From positions 1 to 55,943 of the forward strand of contig CAMHKU010000006.1 of assembly GCA_946185805.1 (NCBI GenBank): a stretch of DNA of 55,943 nt. Reading direction: 5' to 3'. This stretch comes from an uncultured Prevotellaceae bacterium (GTDB lineage Bacteria; Bacteroidota; Bacteroidia; Bacteroidales; Bacteroidaceae). Position 1 is the stretch's first letter; every line of letters starts with the position of its first letter. The translations under genes and the position numbers were made by a program. Positions 4,937-55,943 of the stretch are shown here, in pieces. A model generated the notes under the pieces. It did not search any database. It was not told the DNA's origin and saw only the letters and a list, made by a program, of their open reading frames with translations.

Positions 4937-7576
4937 ATGAAAATAGTCAGAAATTATAATCATAAAACCAAAACTTGTATGAAAACCGAAAGACCATTCT
5001 GGAAACGCAGCCAACAGTTGATGTTGGCCGCCGGAGTGCTGTTGGCTGGTGCTGGTTGCTTGGCGTCGTGTAACAAATACGACCTTGATGAGCGTACCCC
5101 CGACGGATGGGGTTCAAGCATCTACAGTTGGCTCGCCGAGCAAGGCAACTACACCAACACAGTACGGATGATTGACGATCTTGGCTATCGTGACGTGTTA
5201 GGCAAGACGGGTTCGAAGACGCTGTTTGCAGCCGACGATGCTGCCTACGAGCGTTTCTACAGTAACAACAGTTGGGGCGTGCATAGCTACGACCAGCTGT
5301 CGCCATCACAGAAGAAGTTGCTCATCTTCGGCACGATGATGGACAACTCCATGCAGCTTCATAACCTGGCTAACGTGCCCGGCAACCCGCCCACGCAGGG
5401 TGAGAGCATGCGCAGGTTCGCCTCGATGTCGGAGTTTGACTCTGTGCCCATCCTCAGGCCCGAGCAGATGCCTGACAACAAGTTCTGGAGCCGTCTGCGC
5501 CAGGGGGGCAAGCCTGTGGTGTGCATGACCGACAACTCCAAGGTAACGCTGCTGCAGTTTGTTGAGAAGTTTCTGGTGAACAACCGCATCACCAACGAAG
5601 ACTTCGACTTCCTGATGAACTTCCGCGGCCAGCGCCAGGCCGGCGATGCCAGCATCAACGGTGTGCTGGTGGCCGAGCCCAACGTGAAGTGCTCCAACGG
5701 ATTCATCCACCTGATGTCGGAGGTGGTGACGCCACTGCCCAACATGGCCGAGCTCATCAGGGGCAAGGGCAGTGCCAGCGAGTATAACAAACTGCTGGAG
5801 CGCTTCTGCGCCCCTTACCCCGATATGCACCCCGACCAGAACGGGTCGCTGACCATGCAGTACAATTTCCTCTATCCTGACCGTCAGACGGACACCGTCT
5901 ACCAGAAACGGTTCTTCTCGTCTAAGTCGCAAGGAGGTGCTGCCCTGAGCCGTTCACCCGACAACGGTCCTGTATCGATGCTGAAGTTCGACCCCGAATG
6001 GAACTCCTACACCTCCGGCGATCAGGGTGTGCAGCCCGACATGGCCGTAATGATGGTGCCCAGCAATGCTGCCATGAACGACTATTGGCAGAACGGTGCC
6101 GGTAGCATCCTGCGTGAGCAGTACGGCGAGTGGAGCAACGTGCCCAACGACGTGGTGGCCGAGCTAATCAACAACAACATGCTCAGCTCGTTCAAGATTT
6201 CCGTGCCCTCGAAGTTCCAGAGCATCCTCAACGACGCCAACGACCCCATGGGCGTAGAGCTGGCAGCCATCGACTCTGTATGGCTGGGCTGCAATGGCGC
6301 CATCTATCTTACTAATAAGGTGTACTCGCCTACGTCGTTTGTCAGCGTGCTCTATCCCGCACTGACCAACGAGTCGATGAAGATTATGTACTGGGCAGCC
6401 CAGAAGTGTCGCTACAACGTGTACCTGAACTCACTGAACTCACGCTACAGCCTCTTCATCCCCAACAACCAGGCCATGCTGCAATACATCGACCCCGTAA
6501 GCTACGGCAAGGCCGAGACGCAGCTGTTCCGCTTCCACTGGGATCCCACGAAAGTGGCCAGTGCCACCCCCGACGATCAAGACGACCGCGTGTGGGCCAG
6601 TATCTGGAACTACAACGTAGAGACCGGCGAAGTGGGCGACTCCATAGGCAGGGCTGACTACTATCAGATTAAGAACCGTCTGAAGGACATCCTCGACACC
6701 CATATCGTCATCGGCGACGTGGAGGACGGACAGACCTATTACCAGACCAAGGGCGGCACCTACCTGCGCGTCAACAACAGCGGCAGCAACATCACCGTGG
6801 AAGGCAGCTACCAGATGGACAACAACACACCGCTGCAGATCAATAAGGTCTATGACCAGACGAAGGAGGGTAACGGCAAGGCTTACATCCTGGAGAACGA
6901 GCCCATTATGACCACGCGCAAGAGCGTGTACGACGTGTTGGAAGAGCACGACGAGTTCCAGATGTTCCGCGAAATGCTCGTCAGCAGCGGCCTGCTGGAG
7001 CAGCTGCACGACAACCAGTGGGGCACGGCCTCCAACAACCTTTCGCCGTTCAACACCTATCACTATACTGTGTATGTGCCCACCAACGAGAGCATCCAAG
7101 AGTTGATCAATGCCGGCAAGCTGCCCACATGGGAGCAGTATGAAGCCAACCTTAACGCTGGTAACATGGAACAGGCAGCGAGCGACTCGCTGGCTATCGT
7201 CAATTTCCTGAAGTACCACATCCAGGACAACTCGCTGGTGATTGGCGGCGGCCAGGATGACGACGAGCACGAAACGGCGCTCATTGACGCTGAGACACAC
7301 CGCTTCTACCAACTGCGCACTGTGCTCGACAACAGCAGCCTGACCCTTTGCGACAAGGCTACCAGCGACTGGCTCATTGCCAACCCCAGCATGCGCGGCT
7401 CGTCAGAGTACACTGCCCGTCTGGCTCATGTCGTTACCTCATCGGGCTTATACAACCTGATGGCCCGCGAGTATCAGTACAACAGCGCTACACCAAAGAA
7501 CGCCACCGAGATACACACTACATCGTCGGCCGTTATCCATCTGATTGACAAACCCTTGCGCTACGCTAGTGAATAG
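4937..7576 (+). CDS. Fasciclin domain-containing lipoprotein (large)
   Basis: Lipobox (LASC); fasciclin-like motifs (KTLFAADDAAYERF, YTVYVPTNESIQELI). Start may be at 4979. Confidence 0.75.
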   Translation: MKIVRNYNHKTKTCMKTERPFWKRSQQLMLAAGVLLAGAGCLASCNKYDLDERTPDGWGSSIYSWLAEQGNYTNTVRMIDDLGYRDVLGKTGSKTLFAADDAAYERFYSNNSWGVHSYDQLSPSQKKLLIFGTMMDNSMQLHNLANVPGNPPTQGESMRRFASMSEFDSVPILRPEQMPDNKFWSRLRQGGKPVVCMTDNSKVTLLQFVEKFLVNNRITNEDFDFLMNFRGQRQAGDASINGVLVAEPNVKCSNGFIHLMSEVVTPLPNMAELIRGKGSASEYNKLLERFCAPYPDMHPDQNGSLTMQYNFLYPDRQTDTVYQKRFFSSKSQGGAALSRSPDNGPVSMLKFDPEWNSYTSGDQGVQPDMAVMMVPSNAAMNDYWQNGAGSILREQYGEWSNVPNDVVAELINNNMLSSFKISVPSKFQSILNDANDPMGVELAAIDSVWLGCNGAIYLTNKVYSPTSFVSVLYPALTNESMKIMYWAAQKCRYNVYLNSLNSRYSLFIPNNQAMLQYIDPVSYGKAETQLFRFHWDPTKVASATPDDQDDRVWASIWNYNVETGEVGDSIGRADYYQIKNRLKDILDTHIVIGDVEDGQTYYQTKGGTYLRVNNSGSNITVEGSYQMDNNTPLQINKVYDQTKEGNGKAYILENEPIMTTRKSVYDVLEEHDEFQMFREMLVSSGLLEQLHDNQWGTASNNLSPFNTYHYTVYVPTNESIQELINAGKLPTWEQYEANLNAGNMEQAASDSLAIVNFLKYHIQDNSLVIGGGQDDDEHETALIDAETHRFYQLRTVLDNSSLTLCDKATSDWLIANPSMRGSSEYTARLAHVVTSSGLYNLMAREYQYNSATPKNATEIHTTSSAVIHLIDKPLRYASE

Positions 7577-7609
7577 TGAATAGTGAATAGTGAATAGTGA
7601 AAAGAGAAA
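7568..7609. repeat. Heptanucleotide array (AGTGAAT)n between a fasciclin gene and susC
   Basis: AGTGAAT x4, AGTGAAA, AGAGAAA; contains the fasciclin stop codon TAG (7574-7576). Confidence 0.9.
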
Positions 7610-10600: not shown

Positions 10601-10950
10601 AGAGCGCAGCCGTCAACTGGCGCTGGCGCGTTGAGGGCGACATCACCGAGATTCCCCGTGCCCTGCGCCAGGCCGGCTACAACTACTTAGGAAGCGACCG
10701 CTTCGTTGAAGACGGCTCGTTCATCCGTCTGAACTACTCGCAGCTCAGCTACTCGCTCGACCCGAAGATTATCAAGCGCTTAGGACTCACACAGCTGAGC
10801 TTCAGCTTCTCGGCCAACAACCTGTTTGTCATCACCAAGTATTCGGGTGCCGACCCTGAGGTGGGCTACGGCGGCATGGGCATCGTTACCGACAACGCCC
10901 AGACACCCCGCTCGAAGTCGTTCACCGGCAGTGTGACCATTCAGTTCTAA
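7615..10950 (+). CDS. SusC/RagA-type TonB-linked outer membrane protein
   Basis: Carboxypeptidase-like domain, plug (ITVTAKRR...SMRLRGVSSINGSSEPLIVVDG), C-terminal beta-barrel. ATG at 7615 preferred over GTG at 7597. Confidence 0.95.
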   Translation: MKHIIENATHKVSAPRTLLLALCCLGASHAMAQKAGDIISGTISDAFGPVMMANVVEIDASNRIVASAQTDMSGNFSFKLKNPKDKIRVSYVGYKTQTLPINKTKFNIQMQDATQIKEVTVTAKRRAQGSGLAIPEDEISTSRQSIDMKEFDGLSFTTVDEALQGRIAGLDIVAGGDLGKGTSMRLRGVSSINGSSEPLIVVDGNVWESNTNNFDFSNANDEKFAELLNVNPEDIESISVLKDAAATAIWGSQGSNGVIEIKTKRGARGKTRVNYSFRLTGTYQPKGYNMLNGDEYTMLLKEEYFNPQMSDAASDIKEINYDPSFSEYEMYNNNTDWLDEVKKTGWRQNHYLALSGGGEKANFRIGAGYDHETGSIIEQKLDRFTSRVNLDYFVSDRIKIETNIALTYTKNNKNNGDLLGIAYVRMPNLSVYEQDRYGNDLDDYYSMLPTATEALKDQRDRKNPVALAFLAKNKETSYNITPEFKLNYRLLGLDEQHHRLDYEGKIVFNIFNKYEDLFMPLALSTAGWKDVESGNHQSSANRVSSFSDKSLGVTTTHTLTFTPHFTNEDHTLTMMLRGQLTSGTSSSQRTTTYGLPSGTIQSTAASGIIGNDFGTGSGQWRSVYFTYSAHYAYKGRYMIDFSVRRDGSTKFGDDQRWGNFPAVSLRYNISREPWFQKALPFISMLSLRPGWGVVGRQPGSEGLFYSKYVKGAGYLNNGSVAPANIQMKNLKWEQKKTYNLGTDFGFFDDRITGNVEFYWQYTSDLLMQNRGIPTSSGYPNLAYQNVGDMKNVGWEFNLNGNRIIRKGKFSADFNITFANNKNTITAMDETCLATLNSEFNRQNGSYLTRVELNTALGSIYGFRSKGVYQYSDYSEVEVPGVSGPNAPVARDAQGNVIVDENGMTTPMMFCYAGAKDESKVFRGGDAIYEDINHDGQIDELDIVYLGSSLPKFTGGFGFKLHYGRWTWNNQFNFRYGNKIINQARMNAEKMYDNNNQSAAVNWRWRVEGDITEIPRALRQAGYNYLGSDRFVEDGSFIRLNYSQLSYSLDPKIIKRLGLTQLSFSFSANNLFVITKYSGADPEVGYGGMGIVTDNAQTPRSKSFTGSVTIQF

Positions 10951-10980
10951 TTGAAAATTGAAAATTGAAAATTGAAGATT
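10950..10980. repeat. Heptanucleotide array (ATTGAAA)n between susC and susD
   Basis: ATTGAAA x3, ATTGAAG, ATT; starts on the last base of the TAA stop and ends at the susD ATG. Confidence 0.9.
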
Positions 10981-14755: not shown

Positions 14756-14790
14756 GATAAATTGAAAATGAAAATTGAAAATTAAATATT

Positions 14791-16434
14791 ATGATTACCT
14801 ATAAATTCAAGTCATATATCGTAGCCGGTTGGCTGTGCTGCGGCGCTGCCGCAGCCCTGACCGCCTGCACTGACTGGACCGACCACTACGACGGCGCAGA
14901 GACCGGCGTCGGCAGCGGCTCACTGTGGGAGCAACTCTCGGCCAATCCGCAGCTGACGGACTTCTGCGAGGTGCTCGACAAGACCCACGTCTTCCGCATG
15001 CACCGCAAGACCGAGGTGAGCTATGCCGACCTGCTGCGTGGCGGACAGTCGTTCACCGTCATGGCACCCGTCAACGGTACGTTTAACAAAGATTCGCTGC
15101 TACGCCTGGTGCAGACAGCTCATGGCGACTCCATGGTGGAGAAAGCCTTTGTCTTCAACCATCTCTCACGCATGGCCACCTCCCTCAAGGCCGTCGAGCA
15201 GAGCATGCGACTGCTCAACGGCAAGAATGCGCCGCTGACACAGACCACCGTGCTCAATGTACCCGTCATCTCGGCCAACAACCATGCTGAAAACGGCATC
15301 TACCATGTTATGTCAAGCGCCCTACCCTACGGCTACAACCTCTACGAGGCGCTCTGCGACAATCCGGAGATGGCTCCCGTGGGTGCCGCCCTGCGCCATT
15401 ACGAGTGGGACGAGTTCGACCCCGATGCCTCGGTATCCAGCGGTGTCGTTGAGGGCGTGCCTGTGTATGTTGACTCCGTGGTCTATGAGCGCAACCGCAT
15501 GCTCGAAGCCATTGGCCTGCTCAATGCTGAGGACTCCACCTACTGGGTGGTGGCTCCCACGGCTGAGGGCTGGCAGCGCGCCTGGGACAAGGTCAGCCAG
15601 TACTTCGTCTACGACCAGTCGTACCAGAAGCGCGACTCCCTGCAGCGCTACTGGGCTATGCGTGCTCTGATGGAGGATGCCGTGTTCAACATGACCGACC
15701 AGCAGAACACCAACGAGGCACTGCGGTCAGTACCCTACCTCAACTGGCGTAAAACGTATATCACGGGCAAGCCCGTCTACCACCTCTTCCAAAAGCCCTT
15801 TGAGCCAGGAGGAATACTCTATGGCAGCCGTCAGATGCAGTGCAGCAACGGTATGCTCTACATTACCGACGAATGGCCCTTCGACGCCGAGAAAACATTC
15901 TTCAAGCCTATATGGATGGAGGGTGAGTACAGCTACCGCATCACTGCCGAGAAGAGCTGCCGCTACACGTCCATCCGCCAGGTGGCCGACAGCATCTCAG
16001 AAAACGCCTACCTGCAGATTATTGCCAGCAGCGGTACGGCCAACTGGGAGCTCACCTTCCGGCTGGACAACGTGCTCTCCGGCGACTACGACGTCTGCGC
16101 TATTCTTCTGCCTCAGACCGTCATCAACAAGGACGCCCGCCTGCGCCCCTGCAAGTTCAAGGCCAACATCAACTATTGTGACGTTGAGGGCAAGGACCAG
16201 ACATTCAACTGCGACAACAAGACTTTCCAGAGCAATCCAGAGCGTGTAGACACCGTGGTGCTGGCCGAAGCCTTCCACTTCCCCGCCACCAACTATCAGC
16301 AGAGCACCAATAAGATCAGCCTGACGCTGAAGTGCAGCATCAGCGCCCTGGAGACCTCGCGCTACTCGCGTGAGATGCTGCTCGACTGCATCTACCTGCG
16401 CCCCCGGTCTGCGAAAGGTCAAAATGAAGAATAA
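14791..16434 (+). CDS. Fasciclin domain-containing lipoprotein
   Basis: Lipobox LTACTDW; fasciclin-like QSFTVMAPVNGTFNKDSLL, ENGIYHVMSSALPY. Confidence 0.75.
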   Translation: MITYKFKSYIVAGWLCCGAAAALTACTDWTDHYDGAETGVGSGSLWEQLSANPQLTDFCEVLDKTHVFRMHRKTEVSYADLLRGGQSFTVMAPVNGTFNKDSLLRLVQTAHGDSMVEKAFVFNHLSRMATSLKAVEQSMRLLNGKNAPLTQTTVLNVPVISANNHAENGIYHVMSSALPYGYNLYEALCDNPEMAPVGAALRHYEWDEFDPDASVSSGVVEGVPVYVDSVVYERNRMLEAIGLLNAEDSTYWVVAPTAEGWQRAWDKVSQYFVYDQSYQKRDSLQRYWAMRALMEDAVFNMTDQQNTNEALRSVPYLNWRKTYITGKPVYHLFQKPFEPGGILYGSRQMQCSNGMLYITDEWPFDAEKTFFKPIWMEGEYSYRITAEKSCRYTSIRQVADSISENAYLQIIASSGTANWELTFRLDNVLSGDYDVCAILLPQTVINKDARLRPCKFKANINYCDVEGKDQTFNCDNKTFQSNPERVDTVVLAEAFHFPATNYQQSTNKISLTLKCSISALETSRYSREMLLDCIYLRPRSAKGQNEE

Positions 16435-16457
16435 AGAATGAAGAATAAAGAAAGAAG
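16423..16457. repeat. Heptanucleotide array (AATGAAG/AATAAAG)n
   Basis: AATGAAG AATAAAG AATGAAG AATAAAG AAAGAAG; contains the TAA stop (16432-16434). Confidence 0.9.
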
Positions 16458-16463
16458 ACAGCT

Positions 16464-24591: not shown

Positions 24592-24902
24592 TGTGCTAAT
24601 CCGTTTTTTCGCTTCGCTAGTTAATAGTGAAGAGTGAAAAGTGAAAAAGTGAAAAAGTGAATAGTGGCGGCAAGAGGATTAGCGGTCTTGCCTGCCGTTC
24701 CTCCAGCCTTACTGTTTAAAAGTATCCGCCGGGTAGTCGTCCATGATTTGTAATGATTTTGTTTAACTTATTGCCGGCAGCCGCACACGACGGCCGCCTT
24801 TTCGGCTGCAAAGGTATAAAATTTAATAAAAAACAAAGAATGAAGAATGAAGAATTTGCCGCCGACATCACTATTTTTTTATAAATCATGACAAACAGCC
24901 CC

Positions 24903-24937
24903 AAATTCTTCATTCTCCATTCTTCATTCTTTATTTC
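24903..24937. repeat. Heptanucleotide array at the pepD stop
   Basis: Minus strand AATAAAG AATGAAG AATGGAG AATGAAG AATTTGG; contains the pepD TAA stop. Confidence 0.85.
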
Positions 24938-26391
24938 ACCGGCACGTCCTGAAGCGTCTTCTTCAGCAGCTGCCAGAAGGGGTCTACGGTCTCGATGAGT
25001 GCGCGCTCGGTGGTGGTGTGCGGCGATTTCATCGTGGGACCTAAGGAGACGACGTCCAGGTGGGGGTACTTACCCAAGATGACGGAGCACTCCAGGCCGG
25101 CGTGGTCTACCTGGATGATGCCGTCCTGACCGAAGAGCTCTTTATACTCCTTGAGCAGCAGATGGAGGATTTCCGAGTCGGGGTTGGGATCCCAGCCGCC
25201 GTAGCTGCCGGCGGTCTCCACCCGCATGCCTGCCATGGAGAAGCAACTCTCGAGGGTCTTCACCACATAATCCTTCATATCCTCGCGGCTGGAGCGGGCC
25301 AGAATCTTGATGGCAGCCTTACCGCCCAGGATGTCGATGATGGCCAGGTTGCTGCTGGTCTCCACCACTGCCGGGTAGGCGGGAATGTAGCGCACCACGC
25401 CGTCGTGGCAGGCGTAGATGGCGTCGATGAGGTTGTCTTGAATCTCTACCGGCACCTCCGTCTTGGGCGTCTCCACCTCTTCGCAGACGACCTCGATGCC
25501 CTGTGGCTCGATGAGTTTAAACTCGTCGTTGAAGGTGTCGCGCCAGTCGTCGATGAGCTCCTGCAGGGCGCCGATGTTCTCCTTGGGCAGGGTGAGCACG
25601 GCCTCGGCCTTGAAGGGAATGGCGTTGCGCATGTTACCGCCATGCCATGAGGCCAGCCGGGCGTCGACCTCCTCGACAGCCTCGCGCACCACCTGCACCA
25701 GCAGCTTGTTGGCATTGCCGCGGCCCTCGTTGATTTCCAGGCCGCTGTGCCCGCCGCGCAAGCCTTTCACGGTCACCTTCACGGCAGCATCCTCGGGGTC
25801 GGTCTCCACCTCTTTATAGTCGAGCGTGGCGGTGACGTCGATGCCGCCGGCCGAGCCGATGACGAACTTGCCCCAGTGCTCGCTGTCGAGATTGAGCAGG
25901 ATGTCGCCCTGCAGCTCGCCCTCGGGCAGCTCGTTGGCGCCATACATGCCCGTCTCCTCGTCGCGGGTGATGAGGGCGTCGATGGGGCCGTGCTGCAGGT
26001 CCTTGGCCTCCATGACGGCCATGATGGCGGCCACGCCCAGGCCGTTGTCGGCGCCGAGGGTGGTGCCGCGGGCCTTCACCCACTCGCCGTCAATCCAGGG
26101 CTCTATGGGGTCGGTCTCGAAGTTGTGCTGCGACTCGGGTGTCTTCTGCGGCACCATGTCCATGTGGGCCTGCAGGATGATGCCCTTGCGGTTTTCCATG
26201 CCGGGCGTGGCGGCCTTGCGCATAACGATGTTGCCGGCGGGGTCCTTGAATGCCTCCACGCCGGCATCCTTGCCAAACTGCAGCAGGAACTGCTGAATTT
26301 TCTCCAAGTGTCCTGACGGACGAGGAATCTGTGTCAACTTGTAGAAGTTGCGCCAGATACATTCTGGCTTTAGGTTTTGAATTTCATTCAT
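24931..26391 (-). CDS. pepD: Aminoacyl-histidine dipeptidase (cytosol non-specific dipeptidase)
   Basis: M20-type metallopeptidase motifs (LQAHMDMVPQK, TLGADNGLGVAA, RDEETGMYGA, GLRGGHSGLEI). Confidence 0.93.
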   Translation of the reverse strand: MNEIQNLKPECIWRNFYKLTQIPRPSGHLEKIQQFLLQFGKDAGVEAFKDPAGNIVMRKAATPGMENRKGIILQAHMDMVPQKTPESQHNFETDPIEPWIDGEWVKARGTTLGADNGLGVAAIMAVMEAKDLQHGPIDALITRDEETGMYGANELPEGELQGDILLNLDSEHWGKFVIGSAGGIDVTATLDYKEVETDPEDAAVKVTVKGLRGGHSGLEINEGRGNANKLLVQVVREAVEEVDARLASWHGGNMRNAIPFKAEAVLTLPKENIGALQELIDDWRDTFNDEFKLIEPQGIEVVCEEVETPKTEVPVEIQDNLIDAIYACHDGVVRYIPAYPAVVETSSNLAIIDILGGKAAIKILARSSREDMKDYVVKTLESCFSMAGMRVETAGSYGGWDPNPDSEILHLLLKEYKELFGQDGIIQVDHAGLECSVILGKYPHLDVVSLGPTMKSPHTTTERALIETVDPFWQLLKKTLQDVPVK

Positions 26392-26438
26392 AGCTGTTTT
26401 ATTTTTGAGGGTTCTTATGTGTTGCCGTTTCTTATTTT

Positions 26439-26477
26439 CTCGCAGAGGCGCTGAGGACGCTGAGGTTTACGCAGAGT
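26439..26477 (+). repeat. Left inverted repeat flanking the GxxExxY gene
   Basis: CTCGCAGAG|GCGCTGAG|GACGCTGAG|GTTTACGCAGAG|T; pairs in inverted orientation with 27018-27058. Confidence 0.6.
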
Positions 26478-26556
26478 GCTTATTATATTGGAGTTTTTAT
26501 GAGTATTCTGGAGTGCTTACAATTATTATTAGGAGAAAAAAGAGTTTCTGAGGGTT

Positions 26557-26952
26557 TTATATATCATTGAAATTGTTAACGACTCTCTGTATCCCATGCC
26601 TAAGAGATTCTACGTCGAAATTAATGATGTATCCAAGCTGTATGTTTAAAAGTCTCATATAGGTGAGAAGATGTTTATAATGTACAGGCAGTATTTCCTT
26701 GACTGCCTTTAACTCCAGTATCACACTATCATCGACCATGACATCAAGTCGCAAGTCAACATCCAGTTCTATATCCCTATAGTTCAGTTTTACGGGTACC
26801 TGATGCCTTACAGCAAAGCCCTGTGTCTGTAGTTCATACACTAAAGCTTTTTCATAAACGCTCTCCAGTAGCCCTGATCCCAAGGCCGAATGGACGGCAT
26901 AAGCACATCCCAGCAACCTGTGAGTATATTCTTTGTCAACTAAAACTCCCAT
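26557..26952 (-). CDS. GxxExxY protein (PD-(D/E)XK nuclease-like)
   Basis: GSGLLESVYEKALVYEL (GxxExxY) and LRLDVMVDDSVILELKAVKEI (D...ExK) with a conserved-looking C-terminal LGYIINF. Confidence 0.88.
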   Translation of the reverse strand: MGVLVDKEYTHRLLGCAYAVHSALGSGLLESVYEKALVYELQTQGFAVRHQVPVKLNYRDIELDVDLRLDVMVDDSVILELKAVKEILPVHYKHLLTYMRLLNIQLGYIINFDVESLRHGIQRVVNNFNDI

Positions 26953-26975
26953 AACTCGCTAAAACTCAATATTTA

Positions 26976-28115
26976 TCAACTCTGAATATCACTCTCTAAA
27001 AACTCATTATTTATATTACTCTGCGCATCACTCTGCGCACTCTGCGCCTCTGCGCGAGAGCAAGCAGAAGTTAAGTTCAGAGCCACCCAAGAGTAGACTC
27101 CCAAGAACACGACGAGCAACGTCTGCACGGTGTGGACAATGAGCACGAAGTAGAGAGCCTGCTCATCCTGCACGCCGTAGAGGATGAGCATGGTCTTGAT
27201 AGCGAAGTGCCAGGGTCCGGCGCCATTGGGCGTAGGCACGATGACGGCGAAGTTGGCCACGACAAAGGAGACGAGGGCACAGCCGACACCGAGGTCGGCG
27301 GTGAAGTCGAAACAGAAGAATGCGAGATAATAATGCAGGAAATAGCACACCCAGATGCCTAATGAGAAGAACAGATAGAGCGGCAGGTTCCTGATGCCCC
27401 GCAAGGAGAGCACACCCTCCCAGATGCCGCTGAGCGTGGTCTTCACCTTATTATATATGGAGAGGCGCTTCAGCAACAGGTGCAACAGCAGGGCTACGGC
27501 CACGGCACAGACGGCCGTCACAATGTAGCCGGTGAGCGAGAAGCCACCGAGGATGCGGTCCAGCGACGTGCCGGTGCGGCGGAAGAAGGTGCCGAAGGTC
27601 GACATCTCTATCAGCAGGATGATGCCCGAATAGAGCATGACGATGAGCGTGTCGACGGCACGCTCGGTAACCACCGTGCCCAGGGCTTTGGAGAACGAGA
27701 CGCCCTCCCAGCGCTTCAGCACGCCGCAACGCATGAACTCGCCTATGCGGGGAATCAACAGCGAGACGGCATAGCTCAGAAACACTGCGTTGACGCAGAC
27801 ACTGCTGCGAGGTGCGGGGGTACAGGGGGGCAGGGGTGCGAGGAAGTGAGGTGCAGGGGTGTAAGGTACGGGGCTGCGGGAATCCTTTGCCAGCGGCTCC
27901 AGCGTCTGCTTCCAACGCCAGCCACGGAAAGCCTGCGCCAGGATGCCGAAGGGAAACGACAGCAGCATCCACGTCCAATTCATCTCATGGAGCATGACGT
28001 GGCGCACCAGCTGGAAGTCGAAGTCACGATACATCCAATAGAGTATACCGCCACCCAAGAGTAACGGCAACAGAATTTTCAGAACTTGTACGCCAAGCGC
28101 TTTAAGGTTTTCCAT
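26976..28115 (-). CDS. Flippase-like (lysylphosphatidylglycerol synthase TM region/UPF0104-type) membrane protein
   Basis: Polytopic; RGWRWKQTL, LIPRIGEFMRCGVLKRWEGVSFSKALGTVVTERAVDT, PTPNGAGPWHF. Confidence 0.85.
   Translation of the reverse strand: MENLKALGVQVLKILLPLLLGGGILYWMYRDFDFQLVRHVMLHEMNWTWMLLSFPFGILAQAFRGWRWKQTLEPLAKDSRSPVPYTPAPHFLAPLPPCTPAPRSSVCVNAVFLSYAVSLLIPRIGEFMRCGVLKRWEGVSFSKALGTVVTERAVDTLIVMLYSGIILLIEMSTFGTFFRRTGTSLDRILGGFSLTGYIVTAVCAVAVALLLHLLLKRLSIYNKVKTTLSGIWEGVLSLRGIRNLPLYLFFSLGIWVCYFLHYYLAFFCFDFTADLGVGCALVSFVVANFAVIVPTPNGAGPWHFAIKTMLILYGVQDEQALYFVLIVHTVQTLLVVFLGVYSWVALNLTSACSRAEAQSAQSDAQSNINNEFLESDIQS
27018..27058 (-). repeat. Right inverted repeat flanking the GxxExxY gene
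   Basis: Minus strand CTCGCGCAGAG|GCGCAGAG|TGCGCAGAG|TGATGCGCAGAG|T: same unit order as 26439-26477; encodes part of the flippase C-terminus. Confidence 0.6.
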
Positions 28116-47013: not shown

Positions 47014-47203
47014 CTTTATTCGTTGTTCTTGTTGGTTCTGCTTTGCTTTGATTTCTTTACCCTTAGTCCACAGGTCGGTAATGAGGTCGCCTTTGCGCGC
47101 CTCAACATCACTCGGCATGTGGGGAAGCTTTACTACTCTCACTTTATTTTCGATTTACTATTTTATTTTCTATTTTCGATTGATTACCTTGCCGATGAAG
47201 TAA

Positions 47204-47755
47204 TCACCCTTCACCTTCACCCTTCACCAGAGTATAGACGTCCTTTAGTCCGCGGCCCTGCTGATCGTAGTCCAGGCCATAGCCCAGGATGAAGTCATTG
47301 GGAATCTCGAAGGCCACATAGTCGAGCTTCAAGTCTACCGTCAGTTTCTCGGGTTTGAAGAAAAGCGTGCACACCTGCACCGAGGCGGGGTTGCGCGTGC
47401 CCAGCTGCTCCATCATACGCTTGATGGTGAGACCGCTCTCCACAATGTCCTCCACGATGACAACGGTGCGGTCGGTGAGGTTCTCGTTGATGCCTATCAC
47501 CTCGTGCACCTTGCCTGTCGACGTGGTACCCTGATAGGAGGCTAACTTTACAAACGAAATCTCACAGGGAATGGTCATCTCGCGCATCAGGTCGGCGGCG
47601 AAGATGAACGCACCGTTGAGCACGGCCAGAAACAGCGGATTCTTACCCTCCAAGTCACGGCTCATCTGCTGAGCCAGTTCCTTCACTCGCGCCTGTATCT
47701 GAGCAGCAGGCATAGACACCTCGAAGGTCTTATCTTTAATGGTTACTCTATTCAT
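47204..47755 (-). CDS. hpt: Hypoxanthine phosphoribosyltransferase
   Basis: VVIVEDIVESGLTIKRMMEQL PRPP loop; FILGYGLDYDQQGRGLKDVYTL. Confidence 0.93.
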   Translation of the reverse strand: MNRVTIKDKTFEVSMPAAQIQARVKELAQQMSRDLEGKNPLFLAVLNGAFIFAADLMREMTIPCEISFVKLASYQGTTSTGKVHEVIGINENLTDRTVVIVEDIVESGLTIKRMMEQLGTRNPASVQVCTLFFKPEKLTVDLKLDYVAFEIPNDFILGYGLDYDQQGRGLKDVYTLVKGEGEG

Positions 47756-47875: not shown

Positions 47876-49390
47876 ATGAAGATCTTTACGAGCGCTCAGA
47901 TACATGAGCTTGACAAATATACTATAGAGCACGAACCCATCAAGTCGATCGACCTGATGGAGCGCGCCGCCAAGACCCTGACACAGGCCATCATTGCACG
48001 TTGGGACATGACGGTACCTGTGGTGGTGTTCGCCGGCCCTGGCAACAACGGCGGCGATGCGTTGGCTGTTGCGCGCATGCTGATAGAGCGAGGCTACGAG
48101 GTGAAAATATTTCTATTTAACATCTCCGGACATCTGTCGGCCGACTGCGAGGAAAACAAGAAACGCCTGACGGGCAAGAAAGCCAAGCAGCTTGTAGAAG
48201 TGACACAGGAGTTTGACCCGCCACAGTTAGAACACGGCATGCTCGTGGTCGACGGGCTCTTCGGCTCAGGCCTCAACAAGCCCCTGAACGGCGGTTTTGC
48301 CTCACTGGTGAAATATATCAACGCCTCGCCCGCCGAAGTGGTGAGCATCGACATGCCGTCGGGGCTGATGACCGAAGACAACACCTATAACGTCAGGGCC
48401 AACATCGTTCGCGCCACACTGACGCTCACCTTAGGACAGAAGAAACTGTCGATGCTCTTCGCCGAGAACCAGCAGTTTGTAGGCGACCTGCAAGTGCTCG
48501 ACATCGGACTGAGCCAGGAGGGCATCGAGAAAACAGAGTGCCAGTACACCATGGTGGAAGAGGCCGACGTCAGAGCTCTGATGCTGCCGCCACGCCACCC
48601 CTACGCCCATAAAGGCTCGATGGGCAATGCCCTGATGATTGCCGGCAGCTACGGCATGGCGGGGGCCGCCGTCCTGGCTACTGAAGCGTGCCTGCGCTCG
48701 GGTGTGGGCAAGGTCACCTGTCGCACGCCGCGTAAAAACGTGCCCATACTGCAAATAGCCGTTCCCGAAGCCGTGTTGATGATAGACCGCGAGGAGACCA
48801 CCTTGTCGGAGGCTGTCGACACCGAGGACTTCCAAGCCATGGGCATCGGCCCCGGCTTAGGCACCACCGAGTCGACGGCCATCGCCATTATCGCCCAGCT
48901 GCGGCGCGCGCAGTGCCCCATCGTCTGCGATGCCGACGCCATCAATATCTTGGCCAACCACCATGCATGGGTGCAGCAACTGCCTAAAGACATCATACTG
49001 ACGCCCCACCCTAAGGAGTTCGACCGCTTAGAGGGTCATTCCTCCGACAGCTTCGAGCGCCTATCTAAAGCCCGCGACCTGTCACAGCGCCTACAGGCAT
49101 ACATCATACTGAAAGGCCACCACTCGGCGCTTTGCAGTCCCGACGGTCATATCACGTTCAACACAACCGGTAATGCCGGCATGGCCACCGCCGGCAGCGG
49201 CGACGTGCTCACAGGCATTCTCACCGGTCTCTTAGCCCGTGGCTACAGCCAATGGGAGGCCTGCATCGTGGGGATGTACCTACACGGTCTGGCTGGCGAC
49301 ATGGCCGCCCAGGAGATGGGAGAGGAGAGCCTCATAGCCCGCGACATCATCAGATACCTGCCGAAGGCGATGGGAAAGTTGAAAATTTGA
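47876..49390 (+). CDS. nnr: Bifunctional NAD(P)H-hydrate epimerase/dehydratase
   Basis: FAGPGNNGGDALAVARML (epimerase) and HKGSMGNALMIAGSYGMAGAAVLA, NTTGNAGMATAGSGDVLTGILTGLLA (dehydratase). Confidence 0.95.
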   Translation: MKIFTSAQIHELDKYTIEHEPIKSIDLMERAAKTLTQAIIARWDMTVPVVVFAGPGNNGGDALAVARMLIERGYEVKIFLFNISGHLSADCEENKKRLTGKKAKQLVEVTQEFDPPQLEHGMLVVDGLFGSGLNKPLNGGFASLVKYINASPAEVVSIDMPSGLMTEDNTYNVRANIVRATLTLTLGQKKLSMLFAENQQFVGDLQVLDIGLSQEGIEKTECQYTMVEEADVRALMLPPRHPYAHKGSMGNALMIAGSYGMAGAAVLATEACLRSGVGKVTCRTPRKNVPILQIAVPEAVLMIDREETTLSEAVDTEDFQAMGIGPGLGTTESTAIAIIAQLRRAQCPIVCDADAINILANHHAWVQQLPKDIILTPHPKEFDRLEGHSSDSFERLSKARDLSQRLQAYIILKGHHSALCSPDGHITFNTTGNAGMATAGSGDVLTGILTGLLARGYSQWEACIVGMYLHGLAGDMAAQEMGEESLIARDIIRYLPKAMGKLKI

Positions 49391-49433
49391 AAAATTGAAA
49401 GATTGAAAAGTTGAAAAATTGAAAAATTAAAAA
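49377..49433. repeat. Degenerate (TTGAAAAA)n array between nnr and the DUF4831 gene
   Basis: Repeated TTGAAA units with ~8-bp spacing; contains the nnr TGA stop (49388-49390). Confidence 0.8.
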
Positions 49434-49454
49434 GTATTCAAGGACATCACTATA

Positions 49455-54668: not shown

Positions 54669-55943
54669 TCAGCATTTAGCGCCTCAATAGGCCGTATGCG
54701 GCTGGCCTTGTAGGCGGGAATGAGTCCGGCCACGGTGCCGGCGACAATCATGACCACGGTGGCCTCTATGCAGACGTCGAGCCCCACCGTGGGGTTGACG
54801 AACATCGTGGTGCGGAACAGGCCGGTGTCGATGACGTCGTGGCCCAGGGTGGCATCCATATATTCATTGGCGGCCACACCGAGCACCATGCCCACATAGC
54901 CGAAGATGGTGGTGATGATGACGCTCTCGACGATAATCAGTCTCAGGATAGCCCACGGCTTGGCGCCGATGGCCTTGCGTATGCCGAACTCATGGGTGCG
55001 TTCCTTGACGGTGATGAGCATGATGTTGCTCACGCCGACGATACCCGAGAGCAGGGTAAACAGGCCGATGACCCACAGCGCCGTGCGAATGATGCTCATG
55101 CCCTTGTTCATCTGCATGTTCTGCGTGTAACGGTTCCACAGCCACAGGGCGCTCTCGTCGTCGGGGTGCGCCTGGTGGGCACTGTTCATGCGGCGACGGT
55201 AGTCGCGCTCAAACTGCTCGTTGGCCTGCTCCGTGGCCAGACCGTGGAAGGTGAACTCTATGCGCCCCACGTCGTCGGTATGTGTGCCATAGATGCTCTT
55301 GATGGTGGAATAAGGGGCAAAGGCATCGGCGCGGCGGTTCTCCTGCTCCTTGAATATGCCCACCACCTTGAAGGCCAGCGTGCCTACCTTGACATACTGC
55401 CCAATGAGCGCCTCCAACTGTGAATGACGGACTTTGGAAGCCTGACCGTGCTTGCCTACTTGTGAATGGTGAATGGTGAATGGTGAATTAGCCAATTCCT
55501 GAGCCTGCTTGCTGCCGAGGACTACCACCTTGCGGCGCTCGCGCAGGTCGATGACGTTGATAAAACGGCCGTGGAGCATCTCCACCTTGTCAATCTTCGT
55601 ATGGTTAGGATAGACGCCGCTCACCTGGGTAGAGATATACTGCTGGCCGCGGCTGATGACGGCAGAGGTCTGGTACTGTGCGCCCACCTCGTCGACGACA
55701 CCTCGGAAATCCTGTCCGGTGATGGCTATGTCCTGGTCGTGGAGCCTTACCGAGCGGCCTTCGGCCAAACCGTGATAGGGTTTCGACGTCTGTCCGCCAA
55801 ACACCACCATCGAACTGGCGAGAAAGCGGCTGTTCTGCTGCACCAAGGCATTGATAAGGCCGTTGCCGGCGCCCAACAGCACGATAATCATGAAGATGCC
55901 CCACGCCACGGCGAAGCCCGTCAGCGTGGTGCGCAGCTTATTG
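54665..55943 (-). CDS. MacB-like ABC transporter permease (5' end truncated by window edge)
   Basis: GVSNIMLITVKERTHEFGIRKAIGAKPWAILRLIIVES; reading frame stays open to the window edge (NKLRTTLTGFAVAWGIF). Confidence 0.92.
   Translation of the reverse strand, partial: NKLRTTLTGFAVAWGIFMIIVLLGAGNGLINALVQQNSRFLASSMVVFGGQTSKPYHGLAEGRSVRLHDQDIAITGQDFRGVVDEVGAQYQTSAVISRGQQYISTQVSGVYPNHTKIDKVEMLHGRFINVIDLRERRKVVVLGSKQAQELANSPFTIHHSQVGKHGQASKVRHSQLEALIGQYVKVGTLAFKVVGIFKEQENRRADAFAPYSTIKSIYGTHTDDVGRIEFTFHGLATEQANEQFERDYRRRMNSAHQAHPDDESALWLWNRYTQNMQMNKGMSIIRTALWVIGLFTLLSGIVGVSNIMLITVKERTHEFGIRKAIGAKPWAILRLIIVESVIITTIFGYVGMVLGVAANEYMDATLGHDVIDTGLFRTTMFVNPTVGLDVCIEATVVMIVAGTVAGLIPAYKASRIRPIEALNAD
55462..55489. 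repeat. Heptanucleotide array (GTGAATG)n inside an ABC permease gene
   Basis: GTGAATG x3, GTGAATT; encodes NSPFTIHHSQ on the minus strand. Confidence 0.85.

Follow-up and report, generated by a model that had tools for sequence, protein, structure and literature searches.

A candidate intervening-sequence-type mobile element in a protein-coding operon, with a GxxExxY nuclease and a four-helix protein as alternative cargo

The locus and its arms

The window, meaning the whole analysed stretch of 55,943 nucleotides from an uncultured Prevotellaceae bacterium, holds on its minus strand a flippase-like gene (PF03706, 26976..28115) and a co-directional downstream pepD for a cytosol dipeptidase (TIGR01893, 24931..26391), and between the two lies a 131 aa open reading frame of the GxxExxY family (26557..26952, minus strand) enclosed by inverted CGCAGAG arrays. 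Judged against the empty site of 20 genomes of its genus, the whole insert spans 26437..27062 (minus strand), its outer borders being fixed only to within about 10–25 bp. As the gene is on the minus strand the right hand array is its 5' arm (27018..27058, minus strand), made of tandem CGCAGAG units in gene sense, and the 3' arm (26439..26477, plus strand) is made of tandem CGCAGAG and CGCTGAG units inverted relative to it; positions and unit order are those originally predicted and are borne out by the sequence. By eye both arms continue inwards in a degenerate form marked by GAGT, recurring every 8–14 nt on the 5' side (26953..27017, minus strand) and as spaced GAGT on the 3' side (26478..26556, plus strand). 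The 5' arm directly precedes the GxxExxY start codon, and the flippase reading frame reads on into it from the other side, gaining about 28 residues; where the site is empty, the homologous flippase stops near residue 350.

The complementary ends make a stem around the reading frame when the element is folded as RNA. Pairing of 26437–26490 with 27010–27062 (minus strand) gives −58.0 kcal/mol, whereas 500 single-base shuffles of the arms average −22.2 (sd 4.0) and reach −37.7 at best, and the 626-nt element folds with a z of −7.45 against 20 dinucleotide shuffles into a structure closed by the arms. The original prediction that inverted repeats bracket the GxxExxY frame is therefore confirmed and is far from chance. 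The element is single copy in its own genome and carries a gene.

Other short arrays occur in the window. A gene-less inverted heptamer array at 24820–24980 (AAGAATG ... CATTCTT) overlaps the last pepD codons and adds another small hairpin, broadly similar in kind, near the element. Tandem arrays of 7–8 nt, each with a unit of its own, lie at 7567–7608, 10949–10980, 14759–14786, 16423–16458, 24626–24666, 47145–47228, 49374–49435 and 55462–55488, and at the threshold used these have no obvious inverted partner.

The GxxExxY protein

The protein matches TIGR04256 (GxxExxY; 131.7 bits against a cut-off of 35, E 1.5e-38) and PF13366 (PDDEXK_3; 129.9 bits against a cut-off of 22, E 7.9e-38). In an alignment of 41 homologues E30, D70, E80 and K82 are invariant and Q94 is near-invariant, the usual PD-(D/E)XK set; the window copy has a histidine at the Q94 column (YKHLLTY), with E30, D70, E80 and K82 intact. 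An AlphaFold2 model (pLDDT 93.5) finds its nearest folds in the Cas4-type SSO0001 and lambda exonuclease, with the Hjc resolvase lower down. At a best E-value of 1.7e-3 these matches support the fold class well but not the subtype. The proposed membership of the PD-(D/E)XK superfamily holds on all these counts: family scores, catalytic residues and nearest folds. A PDB sequence search with the GxxExxY profile gave chance-level matches only (T7 endonuclease I, E 0.96) and was not used.

Among 100 relatives GxxExxY matches are present in 59 and matches to the 23S rRNA intervening sequence (IVS) four-helix protein in 79; both are common small families for which we know of no role. Phage records gave no GxxExxY match and plasmids only 8 distant ones, all on plasmids typed as non-mobilizable, so neither looks like the main vehicle. 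In the open-access literature the GxxExxY name is confined to two papers, one of which mentions it in passing, and repeat strings such as CACAGAGACACAGAG are absent, which is weak evidence of novelty; relevant matches there are limited to work on IVSs, on miniature inverted-repeat elements (MITEs) and on heptamer repeats.

Filled and empty junctions

The flippase and its downstream junction were gathered from same-genus genomes. In 20 of these the gap to pepD is 19–138 bp, which represents the empty site, and a GxxExxY gene between CGCAGAG arms fills it in this genome (674 bp) and in G022 (917 bp), the two proteins being about 80% identical. In G034, G020 and G014 the same place is taken by a 23S_rRNA_IVP four-helix protein, identified by TIGR02436 in G034 and G020 and by sequence similarity in G014, where the copy looks damaged; the arm units of these inserts (GGTACGGG, GAGGAATGAGGAACG and GTGGAATGAGGAAG) differ from CGCAGAG. 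G004 has an inverted array pair without a gene. The insert starts no more than a few bases from where conserved flippase sequence stops. No target site duplication was seen by eye between filled and empty junctions, the species compared being diverged. Lack of presence/absence polymorphism with clean borders in related genomes had been named as grounds for giving up the idea of an element, and such polymorphism is found at this junction within the genus.

Between this genome and G022 the GxxExxY gene has a dN of 0.136 with synonymous sites saturated, a pattern which shows purifying selection on the protein, and yet a 46-nt stretch of the 5' arm keeps 85% identity. Taken together these values mean that protein and arm are both constrained, or that the arm is alike through exchange with other copies.

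Many four-helix genes sit at a second site, between sdhA and sdhB, where the gap is 1–46 bp in 15 genomes and an element of roughly half a kilobase (470–540 bp where measured) is present in at least 8. Insertion polymorphism with clean borders thus recurs there for the sister cargo. The sdh-site proteins cluster on the tree (12 tagged rows together with L189, whose downstream sequence by eye resembles an sdhB start), consistent with one lineage, and vertical inheritance with losses can account for part of the pattern. The arms at this site fall into blocks matching the protein subclades: a 5' arm pairs with the 3' arms found within its subclade but not with arms from another, so the units have been turned over during descent while complementarity was kept.

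Arms beside GxxExxY and four-helix genes

Arms were scored by counting the 8-mers of a 5' flank that recur in the reverse-complemented 3' flank, and 78 GxxExxY genes were compared by Fisher tests with 944 neighbouring genes from the same regions. Scores of at least 5 are reached by 65% of the GxxExxY genes against 6.7% of controls, and of at least 10 by 44% against 1.6%; for controls with an intergenic gap on both sides the figures are 8.5% and 2.5%, and outliers in the control set included two four-helix genes. The enrichment of inverted arrays that the original prediction expected in the flanks is therefore real. Four-helix genes (n = 30) behave much the same, 67% reaching 5 and 43% reaching 10. 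About a third of GxxExxY loci score low, in part because their arms are degenerate or their flanks hold direct as well as inverted arrays. Cognate arms average 44.1 and permuted partners 18.6 (sd 0.62), and none of 5000 permutations comes as high. Many of the genomes are draft assemblies; the single-contig genome G045 also has inverted arms (L029).

GxxExxY genes lie in the sense orientation to both neighbours in 55 of 74 cases, against 398 of 745 controls (p 5e-4), a moderate bias which could stem from selection against antisense insertions. The 5' arm also has a purine polarity (37/45 GxxExxY and 12/15 four-helix loci), weaker than the polarity of the unit motif described below.

Gene and arms keep together across sites and species, as judged from cross-pairing of arms between GxxExxY loci at different sites: the share of pairs above a fixed threshold is 0.6% at 30–40% protein identity, 24% at 60–70% and 40% above 70% (10 pairs only). 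A different site was judged by 14-mers in common and neighbouring proteins were checked in part; the L139/L145 and L100/L119 pairs have no neighbouring genes in common, and units of the GACTTTAG type occur in both L118 and L132, which belong to two species and lie at sites that are unrelated. As a separate observation, GxxExxY elements with different units apparently occupy one junction in two cases, a sugar-isomerase-like and kinase-like junction (L017 in G037, L023 in G027) and a ferredoxin-oxidoreductase subunit junction (L032 in G025, L035 in G051), which suggests preferred insertion sites.

All six GxxExxY loci of the own genome have inverted arms, each with a unit of its own, and across the home genus the unit differs between loci with both arms changing together. 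A cross-phylum set of 79 loci from many phyla was picked by protein similarity. Here tandem CRCNDAG (CGCAGAG, CACAGAG, CACGGAG, CACGAAG) is about 40-fold enriched, control segments having tandem units in about 1%; as the motif was derived from these same loci the enrichment is descriptive, whereas the polarity comparison is independent of that choice. CRCNDAG stands in sense in 29 of the 5' flanks and antisense in 40 of the 3' flanks, with the opposite polarity in 6 and 7. The design is plain in examples such as L315, a Thiotrichales MAG with CACCACAGAGACACAGAGGCACAGAG, then the gene, then CTCTGTGCCTCGGTGTCTCTGTGGT. Across phyla cognate arms stand out less, 17 of 79 exceeding the 99th percentile of non-cognate pairs, since one unit is common to many loci, and four-helix arms from the wider phylum are weaker also, 8 of 30 passing that percentile. 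As to a unit that GxxExxY and four-helix arms might have in common, both seem to tend to finish in AG in the gene sense. The idea that CGCAGAG is the unit of the flanks therefore survives for its type, which is enriched across phyla, but not for its exact sequence, which varies by locus within the genus. Similarly the single-gene GxxExxY element is supported by insertion polymorphism, but its design extends beyond GxxExxY, since four-helix genes are housed in the same way.

Gene-less arrays and palindromes

By pattern searches, on which the genome-wide counts for the own genome (G000) rest, about a dozen (at least 9) near-identical gene-less palindromes of roughly 175 bp with unrelated flanks were found (C13:11439, C18:32798, C30:5227, C33:195, C38:25223, C43:2464, C46:10771, C63:951, C84:4343, C86:2898, C131:5105 and C149:135). 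They have CGCAGAG ends, TTTAAACGCAGAG...CTCTGCGTTTAAA, and form a MITE-like family that has the unit, and partly the inner pattern, in common with the window element. At C30:7640–7740 (L046), near a GGGATCATGGGGACAGGTT inverted repeat, CTCTGCG and CGCAGAG arms lie back to back with about 30 bp between them. This sequence also terminates contigs C54 and C66, so the repeat probably breaks assembly. In G022 the GxxExxY element (L157) is followed directly by a further CGCAGAG inverted array that has no gene, as if two elements had landed in tandem. More widely, 800 kb from two genomes not picked for these genes contain 63 inverted pairs of all kinds, against 0 when shuffled, and the gene-sized short-array cassettes in that sample hold four-helix genes (L239, L250 and, truncated, L248).

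Interpretation

The architecture, the insertion polymorphism, the joint inheritance of gene and arms at different sites, the fixed polarity of the units, the two cargo families at one site and the selection on the protein are observations. The IVS-like plan, the partly common cargo and the sense bias lead us to propose that 26437–27062 is an IVS-type single-gene mobile element of mRNA operons, for which GxxExxY and four-helix proteins are alternative cargo, a reading to which we give a probability of roughly 0.6. On this proposal two arms of short tandem units, each the reverse complement of the other, enclose a loop with a small reading frame, and the element would insert between genes, mostly in the operon sense direction, and be transcribed along with them. 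Paired in the transcript, the arms would give a long stem, a probable substrate of RNase III or an enzyme like it. The PD-(D/E)XK nuclease most likely acts on DNA bearing the element's own repeat units, and would drive the element's spread in a homing-like or recombination-based way, with the four-helix 23S rRNA IVS protein as an alternative cargo of the same housing.

A serious rival, less probable than the proposal though far from negligible, places everything at the level of DNA: the arms are terminal inverted repeats or cruciform-forming DNA, which the element's own nuclease or a transposase in trans would cut, the gene-less CGCAGAG copies are MITE-like derivatives, and RNA pairing is a by-product. 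It draws on the dispersal of the palindromes with TTTAAACGCAGAG ends through the genome, and on the modelled nuclease fold, which appears to be of a DNA-acting type. However, sense bias in operons, an S23p cargo common to rRNA IVSs and whole units that change in step on both arms are all atypical of MITEs and insertion sequences, and no transposase was found in the elements.

That nothing moves as a unit, the arrays arising by slippage and template switching with GxxExxY and four-helix genes as passengers, is strongly disfavoured. The abundance of gene-less inverted short arrays in the genus and the variation of units from locus to locus are what such a process might leave, but it sits badly with a unit whose polarity to the gene is fixed, with one unit class across phyla, with arm similarity that follows protein similarity at unrelated sites and with gene-sized insertions missing from sister genomes. 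Least probable of all, and very improbable, is a host-serving defence or toxin gene, the arm hairpin keeping down expression of a restriction-like nuclease. That the nuclease is small, stands alone, is under purifying selection and has an arm directly before its start codon would suit this, yet no partner or antitoxin gene adjoins and an unrelated four-helix protein occupies the same housing at the same site.

If the IVS-type reading of the window element is extended, the elements may be a phylum-spanning class defined by architecture, with complementary arms that change together, a unit recognised by the encoded protein and at least two unrelated cargoes (a Cas4/RecB-like nuclease and the rRNA IVS four-helix protein) at the same sites, ribosomal IVSs being members that landed in rRNA. 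This extension is tentative and we would sooner bet against it than for it. GxxExxY and four-helix families gain a common physical context and a testable function, ribosomal IVSs are suggested to be one corner of a larger mobile class in ordinary operons, and the concerted change of the unit in both arms is posed as a puzzle.

Comparison with known systems

Homing endonuclease elements resemble the present one as minimal mobile nuclease genes with empty and occupied sites. Homing elements are defined by cleaving the empty site and converting it; here there is no intron or intein, and one cargo family is found at many unrelated sites. MITEs, including BrickBuilt of Porphyromonas gingivalis (PMC4596501), are likewise intergenic and dispersed with inverted ends and inner tandem units, and the gene-less CGCAGAG copies resemble them and fit the MITE definition of multiple near-identical copies with no gene. 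In contrast the window element is single copy with an intact gene under purifying selection, the unit of the elements varies between loci, and no parent transposase was identified.

Direct repeats of the heptamer TAACTGA in Beggiatoaceae, Cyanobacteria and Bacteroidetes, reported as unexplained (PMC4679880), are also short intergenic arrays that often lie just ahead of start codons, have a patchy distribution over phyla and are suspected of horizontal spread; they are direct and without a cargo gene, whereas the arrays here are inverted around one. The 5' flank of one four-helix gene (L363 in G181) has an arm of TAACTGA units (AGTAACTGAGGAACTAAGTAACTGAG), and the published repeats may belong to this element class as arms.

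The closest comparison is with rRNA IVSs, said to be unclear in both origin and function (PMC4990558). The Coxiella 23S rRNA IVS is roughly 430 nt, with an S23p reading frame in the loop of a 28-bp stem and, ahead of the start codon, three tandem GACAGAT heptamers, and is excised by RNase III (PMC4990558). The elements here differ in lying between protein-coding genes and not in rRNA (the window element is between flippase and pepD, not inside an rRNA gene; the window has no rRNA, and an Rfam search of it and six loci gave no match at the gathering score), in having arms made wholly of tandem units on both sides, and in that their RNase III excision is something we infer. The window copy encodes a nuclease and not S23p, an S23p-type protein being found at flippase|pepD in other genomes. 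What is common to both is a unit of roughly 430–620 bp with a reading frame in the loop, complementary ends that give a long stem, S23p among the cargo families and, upstream of the start codon, short tandem units.
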